Assembly (NCBI RefSeq): GCF_000422505.1
Contig: NZ_KE383864.1
Span: forward strand, 1,207,349 to 1,271,348
DNA: 64,000 nt
Origin: Paenibacillus pinihumi DSM 23905 = JCM 16419
Lineage (GTDB): Bacteria; Bacillota; Bacilli; Paenibacillales; Paenibacillaceae
Direction of reading: 5' to 3'
The position numbers and the translations under genes are program-made. Shown piece after piece: positions 16,880-22,343 of the stretch (position 1 is its first letter; each line of letters begins with the position of its first letter). The notes beneath the pieces were generated by a model. The model was not told where the DNA came from. It did not search any database and saw nothing but the letters and a program-made list of their open reading frames with translations.

Positions 16880-18775
16880 TTACCGGTTCAACAGACTCCC
16901 TACATATTTCAGCAGCTCGTTGGAGCATACCGGGCAGTATCCGTGCTCATCCATCAGCCGCTTCGTGACTTCATTAATACGCTTCAACTGGCTTTCATCA
17001 GGTGTTTTAGTTGAGGTGGTGATTTTTACAATGTCCTTCAAATCGGTAAACAGCTTCTTCTCAATCGCTTCACGCAGCCGGTCATGGCTGGCATAGTCGA
17101 ATTTTTTGCTTTTGCGGGAATAAGAAGATATCCGAATCAGGATTTCTTCACGGAACGCTTTTTTCGCATTTTCGGATATCCCGATCTGCTCCTCAATAGA
17201 GCGCATCAGCCGTTCATCCGGATCAAGCTCCTCTCCGGTGAGCGGATCTTTGATCTTGCTCCAATTGCAATAAGCCTCGATATTGTCCAGATAATTTTCG
17301 AACAGTGTACGGGCAGACTCCTCAAAGGAATAGACAAACGCCTTTTGGATTTCCTTCTTCGCCAGGCCGTCGTATTCCTTGCGCGCTACCGAGATGAAAT
17401 TTAAGTATCGCTCCCGTTCTTCCTTTGTAATCGACGGATGCTGATCCAGACCGTCTTTAAGCGCCCGCAGTACATCTAATGCGTTGATGCACTGCAAATC
17501 CTGCTTAATTAAAGCGCTGGATATGCGATTGATGACATAACGGGGGTCAATGCCCGTCATCCCCTCTTCAATAAACTCATTTTGCATTTCCTTCAAATCA
17601 GCTTCCTTGTAGCCCTCGACCTCCTGGCCGTCATACATCCGCATCTTCTTGACCAAATCCATCCCCTGCTTCTTCGACTCCTTGAGACGGGTCAAAATCG
17701 AGAAAATCGCGGCGGAGCGAAGCGCATGCGGCGCCACATGAATATGCTTCATATCGCTTTGGCCGATCAGCTTGGAATAAATCTTCTCCTCCTCCGACAC
17801 CTTCAGGTTGTAAGGCACCGGCATGACGATCATCCTGGACTGGAGCGCTTCATTCTTCTTATTGCTGATAAATGACCGGTATTCCGTCTCATTTGTATGT
17901 GCGATAATTAATTCATCCGCCGAGATCAAAGCAAAGCGCCCGGCCTTGAAATTGCCTTCCTGGGTTAGAGACAGGAGGTTCCATAGAAACTTCTCATCGC
18001 ATTTGAGCATCTCCTGAAATTCCATCAATCCCCTGTTCGCCTTGTTCAGTTCCCCGTCAAACCGGTATGCCCGCGGATCAGATTCCGAGCCGTACTCGGT
18101 TATGGTAGAGAAATCGATGCTGCCGGTCAAATCGGCAATGTCCTGCGATTTCGGATCTGACGGACTGAACGTACCGATTCCGACCCGGTTATCCTCCGAT
18201 ATTAATACCCGCTCGACCCCGACCCGGTCGATCTGGCCGTCATATTCTGTCTTCAGCCTCATTTGGCAGGACGGGCACAGGTTGCCCTCAATTCTGACTC
18301 CCAGCTCTGCTTCTATATCTGGCCTCAGTTCATGGGGAATGAGATGCAGCGGCTCCTCGTGCATCGGGCAGCCCTGGATCGCATATACAGCTCCCTGCTC
18401 GGTCCGGGAATACTTCTCCAGCCCCTTCTTCAGCATCGTGACCAGCGTCGATTTGCCGCCGCTCACCGGCCCCATCAGCAGCAGAATCCGTTTTCTCACA
18501 TCAAGCCGCCTGGCTGCCGAATGAAAATACTCCTCGACCAGCTTCTCAACCGCACGGTCAAGCCCGAATATTTCCTGTTCAAAAAACTTGTAGCGTTTGA
18601 CGCTTCCGGATTCCTCAACTCCATAAGACTTGATCATCTCATAGACTCTTGCGTGTGCTGTCGTGGCCGGAGTCGGGTCATTTCTCAACAGTTCAATGTA
18701 GTCTTTAAACGTCCCCGTCCAAGCGAGCTTCTCATTCTCTGCTTTGTACGCCGATATGCGTTCGAAAATATCCAT
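16880..18775 (-). CDS. prkA: PrkA family serine protein kinase / AAA+ protein
   Basis: 631 aa from the ATG at 18775 (GGAGGA upstream). The N-terminal AAA_PrkA domain has the P-loop LLMGPVSGGKSTLV around residue 105, an inserted Cys pair motif LCPSCQMRL, and Walker B-type segments. The C-terminal PrkA kinase-like region follows, ending with another CPVCSNEL. PrkA is a sigma-E-controlled sporulation protein in Bacillus subtilis; its E. coli homologue YeaG works with YeaH (YhbH) and YcgB (SpoVR). All three are encoded within 17 kb here, though not in one operon. Confidence 0.95.
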   Translation of the reverse strand: MDIFERISAYKAENEKLAWTGTFKDYIELLRNDPTPATTAHARVYEMIKSYGVEESGSVKRYKFFEQEIFGLDRAVEKLVEEYFHSAARRLDVRKRILLLMGPVSGGKSTLVTMLKKGLEKYSRTEQGAVYAIQGCPMHEEPLHLIPHELRPDIEAELGVRIEGNLCPSCQMRLKTEYDGQIDRVGVERVLISEDNRVGIGTFSPSDPKSQDIADLTGSIDFSTITEYGSESDPRAYRFDGELNKANRGLMEFQEMLKCDEKFLWNLLSLTQEGNFKAGRFALISADELIIAHTNETEYRSFISNKKNEALQSRMIVMPVPYNLKVSEEEKIYSKLIGQSDMKHIHVAPHALRSAAIFSILTRLKESKKQGMDLVKKMRMYDGQEVEGYKEADLKEMQNEFIEEGMTGIDPRYVINRISSALIKQDLQCINALDVLRALKDGLDQHPSITKEERERYLNFISVARKEYDGLAKKEIQKAFVYSFEESARTLFENYLDNIEAYCNWSKIKDPLTGEELDPDERLMRSIEEQIGISENAKKAFREEILIRISSYSRKSKKFDYASHDRLREAIEKKLFTDLKDIVKITTSTKTPDESQLKRINEVTKRLMDEHGYCPVCSNELLKYVGSLLNR

Positions 18776-19308
18776 GCGCCTTGTCTCCTCCCATCGCTCC
18801 CGCTCTTGCATCCATGTGTCTGATAGCTCCCGGATGCCATCTACAGGCTGCCTGAATGCTTGATGCTGTCCCCTTCCTTAGATGGCTCAAAAACTTGTAG
18901 TCCACTACACCGCCGCCACAATGCTCTTGCATTCCGTCTGTATCGCAATAAACCTCACATCTAATCAGGCTGATGCCCAAATTGTTCTGAGTAATACATA
19001 ACTATGCATTCAACTGGGGGAAGTTGCCCCATTTTTTCAGCTTCATTTCAGCAATATTCGACACTGCTTCCTGCTCTTGCCTTTATTATGCCTATGTAAA
19101 CATGCTCAGTGCTTCTTACTCATGCATATACACAGCCATTTCCCCTGGCAGAGCTGTGATATAATAGGATCAACTATTTCAGCATATGATGCTGCCCATG
19201 CCTGCATGCAGCATGTAACGTAAACGTAAAGATAACGTATCGGGGCTTCAAGCTAATTCATAAGCAGCGGATTATCAGAAATTCAACATGGAGGGAGAGA
19301 AGTTTTCA
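18776..19308. other. Long intergenic region between divergent prkA and the DUF2161 gene
   Basis: About 530 bases without a convincing gene. It holds a TATAAT-like -10 at 19162 in the plus direction (GATATAATAGG) and a small inverted repeat ATGCTGC/GCAGCAT near 19188-19215 followed by the tandem AACGTAAACGTAAAG. The promoter for prkA must also lie here, but I could not identify a clear sigma-E pair. Confidence 0.4.
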
Positions 19309-20052
19309 TTGGCAATCAAGCAGGAAGCCGAGCTGTACGGGCCGGTGAAGCAATTTTTTGAACAACGGGGATATGGGGTCAAAAGCGAAATCATGCATTG
19401 CGATCTGGTTGCCATCAAGCACGACAGCACCGGAGAAGAGGAAATTCTTATTGTGGAAATGAAAAAGACATTCAACCTGGCCTTGCTGCTCCAGGGCGTC
19501 GAGCGTCTTCGGCTGGGTGGTCATGTTGTACTCGCCGTAGAACGCAACCGCAAAAAAAGCGGCGCCCACAACCAGCGGTTCGGTGATCTTACGGAGCTGT
19601 GCCGGCTGCTGGGAATCGGACTGATGACCATCACCTTTTTCAAAACGAAAGCCCCGCTAGTGGAGATGCTGTGCGAGCCTGGGGAAGCCCCCCGCAGAAC
19701 CATGCGCAGGAGCAGGCAAGCCCGCATGCTCACCGAATTTCACGAACGGACCGGGGATTACAATACGGGAGGGGTCACAGGACGCAAGCTGATGACCGCC
19801 TACCGCGAGCGGGCACTTCGCTGCGCTTGGGCACTTCAGCAGAACGGTCCCTCAGCGCCCCGGACGATTACCGCGCTAACGGATGTCAGGCAGGCGGGAG
19901 CTGTGCTGCGTGACAATTATTACGGGTGGTTCGAAAAAAGCAGCAGAGGCATCTATCAGCTTTGCGAGCCGGGCATTGCCGCACTTGAGGAGCACGCTGA
20001 CATCGTCGCCGCCTGGCTTACTGCCTCAGGCCGCGATAGCGGGCCCGCCTAA
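19309..20052 (+). CDS. PD-(D/E)XK-type DUF2161 protein
   Basis: 247 aa. I chose the TTG at 19309 (MAIKQEAELYGPVKQF) because GGGAGAG precedes it and this N-terminus fits the family; an in-frame ATG 21 bases earlier has no ribosome site. The nuclease-fold signature is visible: E in AELYGPVKQFF, SEIMHCDLVAIK with the metal-binding Asp, and EILIVEMKKTF with the E-x-K pair. DUF2161 is annotated as a putative phosphodiesterase/nuclease of unknown substrate. The C-terminal 100 residues are basic with a winged-helix feel (APRTITALTDVRQAGAVLRD). Convergent with the next gene. Confidence 0.82.
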   Translation: MAIKQEAELYGPVKQFFEQRGYGVKSEIMHCDLVAIKHDSTGEEEILIVEMKKTFNLALLLQGVERLRLGGHVVLAVERNRKKSGAHNQRFGDLTELCRLLGIGLMTITFFKTKAPLVEMLCEPGEAPRRTMRRSRQARMLTEFHERTGDYNTGGVTGRKLMTAYRERALRCAWALQQNGPSAPRTITALTDVRQAGAVLRDNYYGWFEKSSRGIYQLCEPGIAALEEHADIVAAWLTASGRDSGPA

Positions 20053-20067
20053 CCAAGATAAGCAATT

Positions 20068-21318
20068 TTAGCTGCGGGCCGTGAATTCGCCGACAGCCTC
20101 TGCAAGCCGACGGATTCCCTCCTCCATCTCCGCATCCGTGATCCCGCAAATATTCAGTCGTACTGTATTGCGGGGACCATCTCCAGCATAAAAAGCCGAG
20201 CCCGGCTGAAAGTCCACGCCCTGCCGGATTGCAGCCCGCTGCAGCGCCTGTGCATCCAGCCCCTCTGGCAGCTCCAGCCAAAGGAACATGCCGCCCTGCG
20301 GCTCCAGCCAGCCTGCTTCAGGCATGCAGCTTGCCAGCAGCTCCTCCGCCCGTTTAATCCTTGTGCGGCAGGCAGCTGCAAGCCGTTTTATCGCCTCATC
20401 CAGCGTATCTCCCTTCAGAAGCCGGCTCAACTCCAGTTCTGCAGCAAGGAGCGGCGTACAGTCATTGACTGCTTGCTGTGCCTTTACAATCATCCCGATT
20501 GCCTTAGAATCCGCAGCAATCCACCCTGCCGGCAATCCCAGACCAGCAGCTTCCATACCTGGAAGAGCTCCAAGATAGATGACCTGCCCTCCTTCAATAC
20601 GCCCCTCAAGCGACAGCAGGGAATCGGATTGCTCCGTATCTCGTTCACCCGCTCGTTCAAATTCCCTCCCGGCCGTCATATCCTCTTTATAGATCAGCTC
20701 CCGGCAGGTATCGTCCTCAATAACGGGAAGGCCGAATTCATGGGCGAGCCCAAGCAATCCTTTCTTGCGATCTCTGCTCCACACATGGCCTTCAGGGCCG
20801 CTGCATGTTGGCATGACATACATCAGCCGCGGCCTGCAAGCTTCAAGCTGTGCCCTCGCAGAAGCAATGATTACTCCATCCCGGTCACACGCTGCCGGAA
20901 TAGCTTTGAGACCATGCTTTTCAAACATCCGGAGACGGTCCGCGCTCGCCGGATTCCCGACAAGCACCGTATCTCCGGGCTCGGTCAGTATGCGAATGAC
21001 CAATTCCAAAGCAGTGAGAGAACACGCGGCAGGCAGCAGTTGTTCCGGTTTTGCTGTTAAGCCGGTTAACCTGGCCATCCTTCCGCATAACTGTTCTCTT
21101 AGAGGCAAATACTCTCCAAATACAGCATGTGCTGTCTGTTCTACGCTCCATGAAGGCTGTATCTTAGAAAGAGCCTTGTGAATACCTGACAGCTCAAGCA
21201 GATCACTTGCAGGCTGTGAACCGGCAAATGAAATGACGTTCTCAGGCTGCACGGAACCCGGCCACCCGGGACCTGTCAATGGGAACGGCCGCAGCCGGGA
21301 CGAAAAACGTTCGGACAT
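20068..21318 (-). CDS. Aminotransferase class I/II-fold protein lacking the PLP lysine (pseudoenzyme candidate)
   Basis: 416 aa from the ATG at 21318 (AGGAGG 10 bases upstream). The overall pattern follows the fold-type I aminotransferases related to MocR/2-aminoadipate transaminase: NVISFAGSQPASDL, PGDTVLVGNPAS, LMYVMPTCSGPEG, LPVIEDDTCRELIY, GGQVIYLGALPGMEAAGLGL, and NTVRLNICG. The active-site positions are changed: the SFSK lysine motif is ALPG (about residues 251-254), NPTG is SGPEG, the PLP-stacking Tyr of PTY is Ser, and EDDPY is EDDTC. Only the Asp and the C-terminal Arg survive. The frame is intact over 417 codons, so this is not simple decay. A non-catalytic binding role is likely (inference). 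Confidence 0.85.
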   Translation of the reverse strand: MSERFSSRLRPFPLTGPGWPGSVQPENVISFAGSQPASDLLELSGIHKALSKIQPSWSVEQTAHAVFGEYLPLREQLCGRMARLTGLTAKPEQLLPAACSLTALELVIRILTEPGDTVLVGNPASADRLRMFEKHGLKAIPAACDRDGVIIASARAQLEACRPRLMYVMPTCSGPEGHVWSRDRKKGLLGLAHEFGLPVIEDDTCRELIYKEDMTAGREFERAGERDTEQSDSLLSLEGRIEGGQVIYLGALPGMEAAGLGLPAGWIAADSKAIGMIVKAQQAVNDCTPLLAAELELSRLLKGDTLDEAIKRLAAACRTRIKRAEELLASCMPEAGWLEPQGGMFLWLELPEGLDAQALQRAAIRQGVDFQPGSAFYAGDGPRNTVRLNICGITDAEMEEGIRRLAEAVGEFTARS

Positions 21319-21380: not shown

Positions 21381-21441
21381 CAAGCGTAAACGGTTGTGCC
21401 AGCTTTTGCAGGCACAGCTTCGTTTCGCGTAGAAATAGAAG
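21381..21441. repeat. Palindromic repeat, copy 1
   Basis: First of two near-identical units of about 60 bp (see 21478-21536). The unit contains CAAGCGTAAACGGTTGTGCC, a small stem-loop (GTGCC...GGCAC) and ends CGCGTAGAAATAGAAG. It lies upstream of the pseudo-aminotransferase gene, in noncoding DNA. Confidence 0.8.
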
Positions 21442-21477
21442 ACGTTGATTAAAAGGATACTATTAACGCTTCTATTT

Positions 21478-21536
21478 CAAGCGTAAACGGTTGTGCCGGC
21501 TTTTGCAGGCACTGCTCATTCGCGTAGAAATAGAAG
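21478..21536. repeat. Palindromic repeat, copy 2
   Basis: Second unit. It differs from copy 1 by a few substitutions and a 2-base length change. It is preceded by CTTCTATTTC, which pairs with the terminal GAAATAGAAG, so the unit with its left flank forms a cruciform with the GTGCC/GGCAC stem at its tip. Resembles REP-type intergenic elements. Confidence 0.8.
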
Positions 21537-21634
21537 AAAAAAATGATCGCTGTAACAATCTGTTCACATTTTAATGCGTTTTCTTTTAAAGCCCAATTGG
21601 GTATAATAAAGGCAATGATCTGGAGGTGTGCAGG

Positions 21635-21745
21635 ATGAAATTTGAAATTACATTGAATTTCATCATTGTCATGACTATTATGGTGCTGTTTTTGACCGCC
21701 ATGTTTACAGCGTCATACAATGATGACAAAACCAAAGGTCTCTAA
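21635..21745 (+). CDS. 36-residue single-pass membrane peptide
   Basis: ATG at 21635, TAA ending at 21745, with TGGAGG upstream and a TATAAT -10 about 30 bases before the start. The peptide begins MKFEITLNFIIVMTIMVLFL, continues TAMFTASYND and ends in a short charged tail (DDKTKGL): one transmembrane helix of about 20 residues. A strong terminator follows 2 bases after the stop, so this is a self-contained transcription unit. The combination of promoter, ribosome site, ORF and terminator makes it a credible small gene of unknown function. Confidence 0.7.
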   Translation: MKFEITLNFIIVMTIMVLFLTAMFTASYNDDKTKGL

Positions 21746-21881: not shown

Positions 21882-22133
21882 TTATGCCCGACGGAGCTGA
21901 GTCATATCATGAATGCATGAAGCACACAAATAACGCTCTTTAAATTCCCGGACATCCTCCATAGAACTGCAAAATACGCATCTTGGACGATAGCGCTCCA
22001 GAATGATGTGGTCTCCCTGAACCAAAATTTCAACAGGGTCTCCTTCATTCATCTGATATCTTTTGCGAAGCGATTTGGGCAGTACAATACGTCCCAATTG
22101 GTCAACTTTTCTTACTACTCCTGCTGGTTTCAC
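21882..22133 (-). CDS. AbrB-type transition-state regulator with C-terminal CxxC pairs
   Basis: 83 aa from the GTG at 22133 (start VKPAGVVRKVDQLGRIVLPK, the usual AbrB/Abh/SpoVT N-terminus, with GGAGAGG upstream; the frame is open to 22184). The swapped-hairpin DNA-binding domain covers residues 1-47. The C-terminal part carries CVFC and CASC, two CxxC pairs 21 residues apart, which could bind zinc. It is probably a global growth-phase regulator. Paralogues are common in this group of bacteria, so I do not assign abrB itself. Confidence 0.86.
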   Translation of the reverse strand: MKPAGVVRKVDQLGRIVLPKSLRKRYQMNEGDPVEILVQGDHIILERYRPRCVFCSSMEDVREFKERYLCASCIHDMTQLRRA

Positions 22134-22343
22134 CGATTTCACCTCTCCTGTGTCTAGAATTGCAAGCCATTTCTGAGAAACCATTGCTTTATTAACATTC
22201 GATGGCTCTATCTATTTTCCTTCTGTTAAAATTTTTTTCTTAGTATTCTGCAACTTTACAGAAAGAAACATATCTAATTACCCCGTTTACACTCCGATGA
22301 AACAGCCTTATTCAAAATTTCATAAACCATAACATTTGGAATG

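Follow-up and report, generated by a model that had tools for sequence, protein, structure and literature searches.

An aminotransferase-like protein without the Schiff-base lysine at a conserved Paenibacillus locus: repeated loss of the cofactor site and persistence of the C-terminal subdomain

The locus and its genes

The window, by which we mean the whole stretch of 64,000 nucleotides of the Paenibacillus pinihumi DSM 23905 genome that was analysed, contains a conserved Paenibacillus locus with the gene order prkA, DUF2161, pseudo-aminotransferase, AbrB-like and trmL, and the gene considered here is the syntenic orthologue at this position. The features to which the text refers are the following.

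16880..18811, minus strand: conserved flank beyond the DUF2161 gene, which we take to be prkA; its synteny was measured and it served for the species tree
19288..20052, plus strand: convergent neighbour encoding a DUF2161 putative PD-(D/E)XK protein (Pfam DUF2161, 8.8e-38)
20068..21318, minus strand: pseudo-aminotransferase gene, 416 aa plus stop (ORF, translation, Pfam, AlphaFold2, Foldseek)
20071..20088, minus strand: tail EFTARS, residues 411-416, with Phe412 and Arg415 invariant
20071..20298, minus strand: C-terminal small subdomain, residues 341-416 (hhalign, AlphaFold2 of a short form, slower change)
20557..20568, minus strand: ALPG, residues 251-254, where the Schiff-base motif SFSK would be expected (orthologue alignments)
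21882..22184, minus strand, the same strand as the gene: upstream AbrB/SpoVT-N-like protein, a neighbour in many, not all, species

A DUF2161 gene lies near the aminotransferase-like gene in 17 of the 20 loci fetched around relatives of the window gene, and prkA, the AbrB/SpoVT-N-like gene, trmL, serC and glnA occur in the window's order at many of these 20; in the locus sets assembled later, which were anchored on DUF2161, adjacency to this gene is by design. DUF2161 occurs in 391 of 394 genomes of the family, some of which have no aminotransferase gene at the locus. In the literature searched on pseudoenzymes, DUF2161 and Paenibacillus prkA/spoVR, which included few subscription papers, we found no paper on DUF2161 and, going by titles and the start of abstracts, none describing this aminotransferase-like family.

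The AbrB/SpoVT-N-like protein has a CxxC...CxxC end and is 87-98% identical across the four species compared, despite its strongly varying neighbour. Upstream of the pseudo-aminotransferase gene lies a near-perfect duplication (21381-21537): a 39-nt unit recurs at 21381 and 21478 (95%) and a 19-nt unit at 21424 and 21519 (100%), at a spacing of 95-97. A 19-nt core occurs only twice in the window, and by eye just a fragment of the duplication is visible in the 350 nt ahead of the P. roseus gene. A small divergent ORF (21626-21745, plus strand; 39 aa from a GTG) ends in YNDDKTKGL and, judging by its sequence, probably encodes a one-helix membrane protein; G021 (L155), which is without the aminotransferase gene, has an ORF with this very ending between DUF2161 and abrB. 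Between the small ORF and the gene, at about 21545-21590, the sequence AAAAGAAAAC...GTGAACA..TTGTTA looks conserved by eye in the upstream regions compared across species (L210, L214-L217, L222, L225, L236, L240, L241), and could be a promoter or repressor site. Scans of 75 upstream regions with consensus sequences found no sigE, sigF, sigG or sigK promoters, sigH-like promoters in two (shuffled sequence, 0.3%), and sigB and sigA promoters about as often as in shuffled sequence, and thus do not support a sporulation link of the gene to prkA/spoVR.

Loss of the cofactor site

The gene had been described in a preliminary description as an uninterrupted frame of 416 residues with an aminotransferase pattern and a good ribosome site, and this description holds. 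The minus-strand frame is open throughout, from the ATG at 21318 to the stop at 20068-20070 (416 codons), with GAGGAGG ahead of the start codon and an alternative in-frame TTG 6 nt upstream of the ATG that would give 418 aa; the plus-strand translation of 20068-21318 is full of stops. The protein matches Aminotran_1_2 in Pfam (E 2e-19), its top match among solved sequences is the P. horikoshii aminotransferase II homologue 1x0m (E 1.2e-42), and LysN 2egy is also among these matches (E 7.6e-38, spanning residues 25 to 409). The structure predicted by AlphaFold2 from an alignment of 40 sequences (pLDDT 86.5, pTM 0.88) has LysN 2egy as its best solved fold (Foldseek, E 7.3e-31, TM 0.79); residues 1-22 have a pLDDT below 50, and the aminotransferase match begins near residue 23-25.

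The roles of the individual residues of the PLP pocket are established in the aminotransferase literature. Alignment with orthologues confirmed the substitutions reported earlier: Gly254 of ALPG occupies the Schiff-base lysine column, NPTG has become GPEG with Gly174 for Asn, the stacking Tyr is Ser125, and EDDPY reads EDDTC with Cys205 for Tyr. The second-to-last letter of GSQQ is also altered (Leu101 for Gln), and the Arg that follows the lysine loop is Pro263; the PLP phosphate cup, stacking Tyr and Asn are absent (Ser125, Gly174, Ala251, Pro263). Asp202 and the C-terminal Arg387 are retained, as had been noted. The column-by-column alignment placed no alternative Schiff-base lysine at or near the position, and the sequence contains none between residues 211 and 272 that could be a shifted replacement. 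Other species show comparable losses, which rules out a sequencing error as the source of the lysine loss. The window protein is predicted, from sequence and model, to adopt the fold of a LysN-like fold-type I aminotransferase, but most PLP contacts are gone. The predicted fold is like that of the LysN, 2-aminoadipate and KAT-II-like aminotransferases from end to end, but unlike this group the protein lacks the Schiff-base lysine, has largely lost the PLP pocket, and carries a C-terminal F-x-A-R end.

Repeated loss of the lysine in Paenibacillaceae

Our first survey covered 98 family loci, 20 of them around relatives of the window gene and 78 mostly placed by DUF2161. A match was obtained at 84 loci, two of which hold genes of less than 300 aa (G130 and G111) and were counted as short; the 82 relatives of at least 300 aa make up 83 sequences with the window gene, 58 with the lysine and 25 without it. 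Two of the 58 (G017 and G048) lie off the DUF2161 locus. Among the 14 loci without a match, five hold an eroded or short form on inspection (G028, G010, G022, G366 and G365), two are truncated where the contig stops (G324 and G020), and none was found in G326; the gene is absent from the locus in six lineages that retain DUF2161 and abrB (G016, G021, G034, G406, G407 and G411). A scan of genome contigs with the window protein yielded no relative, and the second survey used a scan with a DUF2161 alignment. This gave 232 relatives in all, of which 80 named loci were surveyed: 59 are lysine-bearing, 15 are full-length without the lysine, three are short and three are cut by contig ends (L220, L270 and L289). 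The two surveys share genomes and their counts are not additive; L199 and L200 (G006 and G001) were refetched and not recounted.

On a tree built from prkA and DUF2161 (83 rows, quick method, 22 open forks; L263, which has no prkA, omitted) the lysine state changes at least nine times, a count that is blind to gain versus loss. Because the lysine-bearing forms have the other active-site motifs in common, we infer from the sequences that the direction is loss. The lysine-bearing relatives presumably transaminate. The window gene falls into a lysine-less clade with P. roseus (L210) and G006. Other losses are those of P. sambharensis with P. tarimensis; P. kobensis and P. xylaniclasticus with P. 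terricola and P. cellulosilyticus; P. phyllosphaerae; P. artemisiicola, P. glycinis and P. lycopersici; P. pasadenensis; P. arenilitoris; and strain CAVE-418. Paenibacillus sp. J5C2022, a further lysine-less lineage, groups with the short forms described below. A search for orthologues had been proposed as a means of seeing whether the ALPG variant is conserved; orthologues exist, but ALPG itself is not conserved, and every lysine-less lineage has its own replacement.

This variety bears on whether other residues might have taken over in a new, PLP-free catalysis. The protein is predicted by AlphaFold2 to fold well, but the lysine-less sequences contain no new invariant set of polar residues and the lineages differ from one another at the old site, and we regard this explanation as extremely improbable.

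Conservation of the C-terminal tail and subdomain

In a hand-chosen alignment of 51 sequences, from which G101 was excluded, Phe412 and Arg415 are present in all 23 lysine-less, all five eroded and all 23 lysine-bearing forms. The 80 named loci yielded 77 genes, 59 lysine-bearing, 15 lysine-less and three short, and every one of them likewise ends in the motif F-x-[AGV]-R followed by one to four residues. In the first survey the tail was present in 24 of 25 lysine-less genes, the window gene included, with G101 as the exception, and in 55 of 58 lysine-bearing genes, where the exceptions are the two off-locus genes and G172, whose frame ends early. The frame of G101 (L182) enters inverted copies of an adapter-like sequence, with a motif that we take to resemble the Nextera adapter, and the missing tail is probably an assembly artefact. 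Tail codons differ between species, which places the conservation at the protein level; since the distance to DUF2161 varies as well, a DNA-level 3' signal such as a terminator or an overlapping gene was rejected. It could be that Phe and Arg simply hold the last helix against the subdomain to which it belongs.

Homologues without the tail, which are mostly distant and either of MocR length or from other families, keep an S-x-S-K-like motif in all 24 cases examined, a contrast that carries little weight given their distance. The pattern E-F-x-A-[RS]-x-stop, which requires Glu before Phe and therefore misses the tail of G006 itself, has five matches in the window genome and one in the control. 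Besides the window gene, one of these ends a long frame, a 391-aa protein terminating in EFRASM that we assume to be AraC-type, and the other three end frames of 17-59 aa. In ten further genomes the pattern was at or below control in most, and above it in G324 (9 to 1), G326 (4 to 2) and G021 (1 to 0). These counts do not support a generic sorting tag on many proteins, and, as far as the pattern reaches, no other recognisable protein of the window genome carries the tail.

Residues 341-416 are the part retained in the shortest orthologues. Forms of 165-214 aa that possess only the C-terminal end (G022/L276, L277, G365/L280 and G366) come from P. camelliae, which has the 165-aa form, and from P. 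montaniterrae and relatives; three of them align to the family over the last 76 columns only, which correspond to residues 341-416 (hhalign probability 95.9%, E 6.2e-9). In the short forms (L276, L277, L280 and L159) the aminotransferase body is replaced by a Lys/Arg-rich head for which the full-length family offers no alignment. In the AlphaFold2 prediction for the P. camelliae form (L276), blocks 71-160 reach a pLDDT of 92-97 and are folded alone, in the order helix-strand-strand-helix-strand-strand-helix, and the first 60 residues score low. The 50 solved matches listed for this form are PLP enzymes or complexes by title, although the best has an E of 6.1e-3 and none is below 0.001. In a second group (g18), G111 and G130 (162 and 211 aa) are also without the core, and their g18 relatives G102, G116 and G129 are full-length and lysine-less. 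The best match of G111 in the window genome is the last 100 codons of the pseudo-aminotransferase gene (E 2.8e-11); judging by eye, G111 and G130 have kept an N-terminal stretch too.

Relaxed constraint and alternative explanations

Substitution rates were compared in hand-chosen pairs, nine lysine-less and 12 lysine-bearing, with the last 75 codons taken as the C-terminal part and with G346, G345, G102 and G129 left untrimmed at the start. The median dN/dS is 0.29 in the lysine-less pairs (range 0.22-0.49) versus 0.05 in the lysine-bearing pairs (p 0.00014). When dN is expressed relative to DUF2161 of the same pair, the body of the protein stands at 7.0 in lysine-less and 1.0 in lysine-bearing pairs and the last 75 codons at 2.8 and 1.0, respectively, and the ratio of C-terminal to body dN is 0.39 versus 0.94 (p 0.017). 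Individual pairs depart from this: in the lysine-less pair L261/L265 the C-terminus changes about as fast as the body (ratio 0.94), and some lysine-bearing pairs have a slow end as well (0, 0.36 and 0.57). Between the window and P. roseus, dN/dS is 0.36 in the body and 0.09 in the last 75 codons, where dS is near saturation, and 0.02-0.20 in ten neighbouring genes. Constraint on the lysine-less genes is relaxed but not neutral; the whole protein is affected, and its end least. The earlier view that the gene is selected and not decaying thus stands as far as the open frames and the dN/dS of about 0.3 are concerned, and has to be modified in that constraint is clearly weaker than in the lysine-bearing relatives.

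These rates also have to be set against slow decay, in which transamination is no longer needed, species are at different stages on the way to losing the gene, and the tail persists through short time or a stable fold. Every stage is seen, up to absence from the locus, the rates are raised over the whole protein including its C-terminal part, and the identity between the window and P. roseus is 46% for the gene in comparison with 71-98% for the ten neighbours. However, identity rises to 68% in the last 75 codons and 85% in the last 20. In simulations only one of 2000 neutral copies was still open at 0.25 substitutions per site and none of 2000 at either 0.5 or 1.0, where about 12-16 stops accumulate, and yet the lysine-less frames are open over such divergences. 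Their dN/dS in all nine pairs is also not 1, all 28 lysine-less or eroded sequences of the hand-chosen alignment have the Phe and Arg of the tail, and the three short forms cover the same 76 columns. We consider slow decay rather unlikely, though it is the strongest alternative.

It had been proposed that the protein might act as a sensor, the fold still binding a keto acid, an amino acid or a PLP analogue and signalling. Asp202 and Arg387 are kept, and Arg387 is invariant in the 23 full-length lysine-less forms, although it may be structural. In these 23 forms the stacking Tyr is never present and Tyr at column 64 is found in about one; roughly one in five has the loop Ser at column 253. It is the fastest-changing part of the protein that holds the pocket, and the cofactor domain is missing in two lineages that have the gene. 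The aminotransferase-like domain of MocR/GabR/PdxR proteins does serve in regulation, with PLP as the effector of characterised members, as described for GabR (according to an excerpt of PMC6522883). Unlike these regulators, the window protein has no N-terminal GntR-type or other DNA-binding domain detected by Pfam, and the best NCBIfam models are far below cut-off (YczR, 133.3 of 487.4 bits; PdxR, 122.2 of 320 bits). A sensor now appears improbable.

The fold of fold-type I aminotransferases normally dimerises, and a pairing with an active paralogue had been suggested as well. The genome has 30 aminotransferase-family matches, so distant partners exist, but the next four are only 24-30% identical to the window protein (E 1.8e-26 or weaker), three of them are of MocR length, and the drifted body is the part that holds the dimer Tyr. 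There is a precedent in LCB1/SPTLC1 of serine palmitoyltransferase, a PLP-enzyme homologue that, like the window protein, is without the PLP lysine and also lacks related residues (excerpt of PMC3794620). LCB1, however, has an established role as a subunit beside its active partner LCB2, whereas no close partner paralogue was seen for the window protein; the loss described here has, moreover, occurred several times in a single bacterial family, in which the PLP domain can even be missing. A non-catalytic subunit of an active aminotransferase is, in our judgement, very improbable.

A possible role for the C-terminal subdomain

The explanation we favour, and consider somewhat likelier to be right than wrong, is a pseudoenzyme that is preserved because its C-terminal subdomain has a non-catalytic role, probably the binding of a partner. 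A LysN-like aminotransferase of Paenibacillaceae, encoded beside DUF2161 and ending its C-terminal helix in F-x-[AGV]-R, would have, or once have had, two jobs: transamination, and a non-catalytic one in the small subdomain with its tail. Transamination would have become dispensable in several lineages, that of the window included; the lysine and PLP pocket would then have been lost, with the body drifting under weak constraint and the subdomain being kept, and in two lineages the PLP domain is absent entirely. The sequences show the repeated loss of the lysine, the persistence of frame and tail, the altered constraint and the survival of the subdomain where there is no PLP domain. We infer both the existence of the second job and its nature as binding; most probably the subdomain binds another macromolecule and the body acts as a scaffold. 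The six lineages mentioned above, with no such gene at the locus, indicate that the job is dispensable there.

In a more specific version, which we think doubtful, the subdomain and its F-x-A-R end would serve the DUF2161 putative nuclease as a dedicated partner, be it an inhibitor, a chaperone or an adaptor; it would have arisen on the end of a metabolic enzyme, with successive lineages discarding the enzyme and keeping the adaptor, and every step between the two would be visible at this single locus. Among 69 homologues, DUF2161 accompanies 43 of the 45 that carry the tail (within 1.5 kb or the flank examined), as it does in the window, and one of the 24 without it, L027 (within the flank examined), although many of this last group are distant. 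The two tail-bearing exceptions are L007, which is cut by a contig end, and L113 (G344), in which DUF2161 lies slightly further away. Against such a partnership, L027 has DUF2161 without the tail, and DUF2161 is also found in genomes that have no gene at the locus.

Pseudoenzymes of the PLP fold, LCB1 for example, are already known. The yeast aminotransferase paralogue Alt2 is described as catalytically inactive and retained, and an additional role has been considered for it (excerpt of PMC3458083). Alt2 is a duplicate beside an active Alt1; at the Paenibacillus locus, as far as its sequence tells, the orthologue itself is inactive.

Implications

Aminotransferase-like genes at this Paenibacillus locus may not encode enzymes. 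The natural short forms (162-214 aa) are ready minimal constructs for a partner search. Pseudoenzymes are usually regarded as single end points. At this one locus, related living species carry an active-type enzyme, a full-length dead form, an eroded dead form or the bare C-terminal subdomain, and if the explanation favoured here is true, the series is a natural experiment that could reveal how an enzyme with a second function comes to lose its original one.
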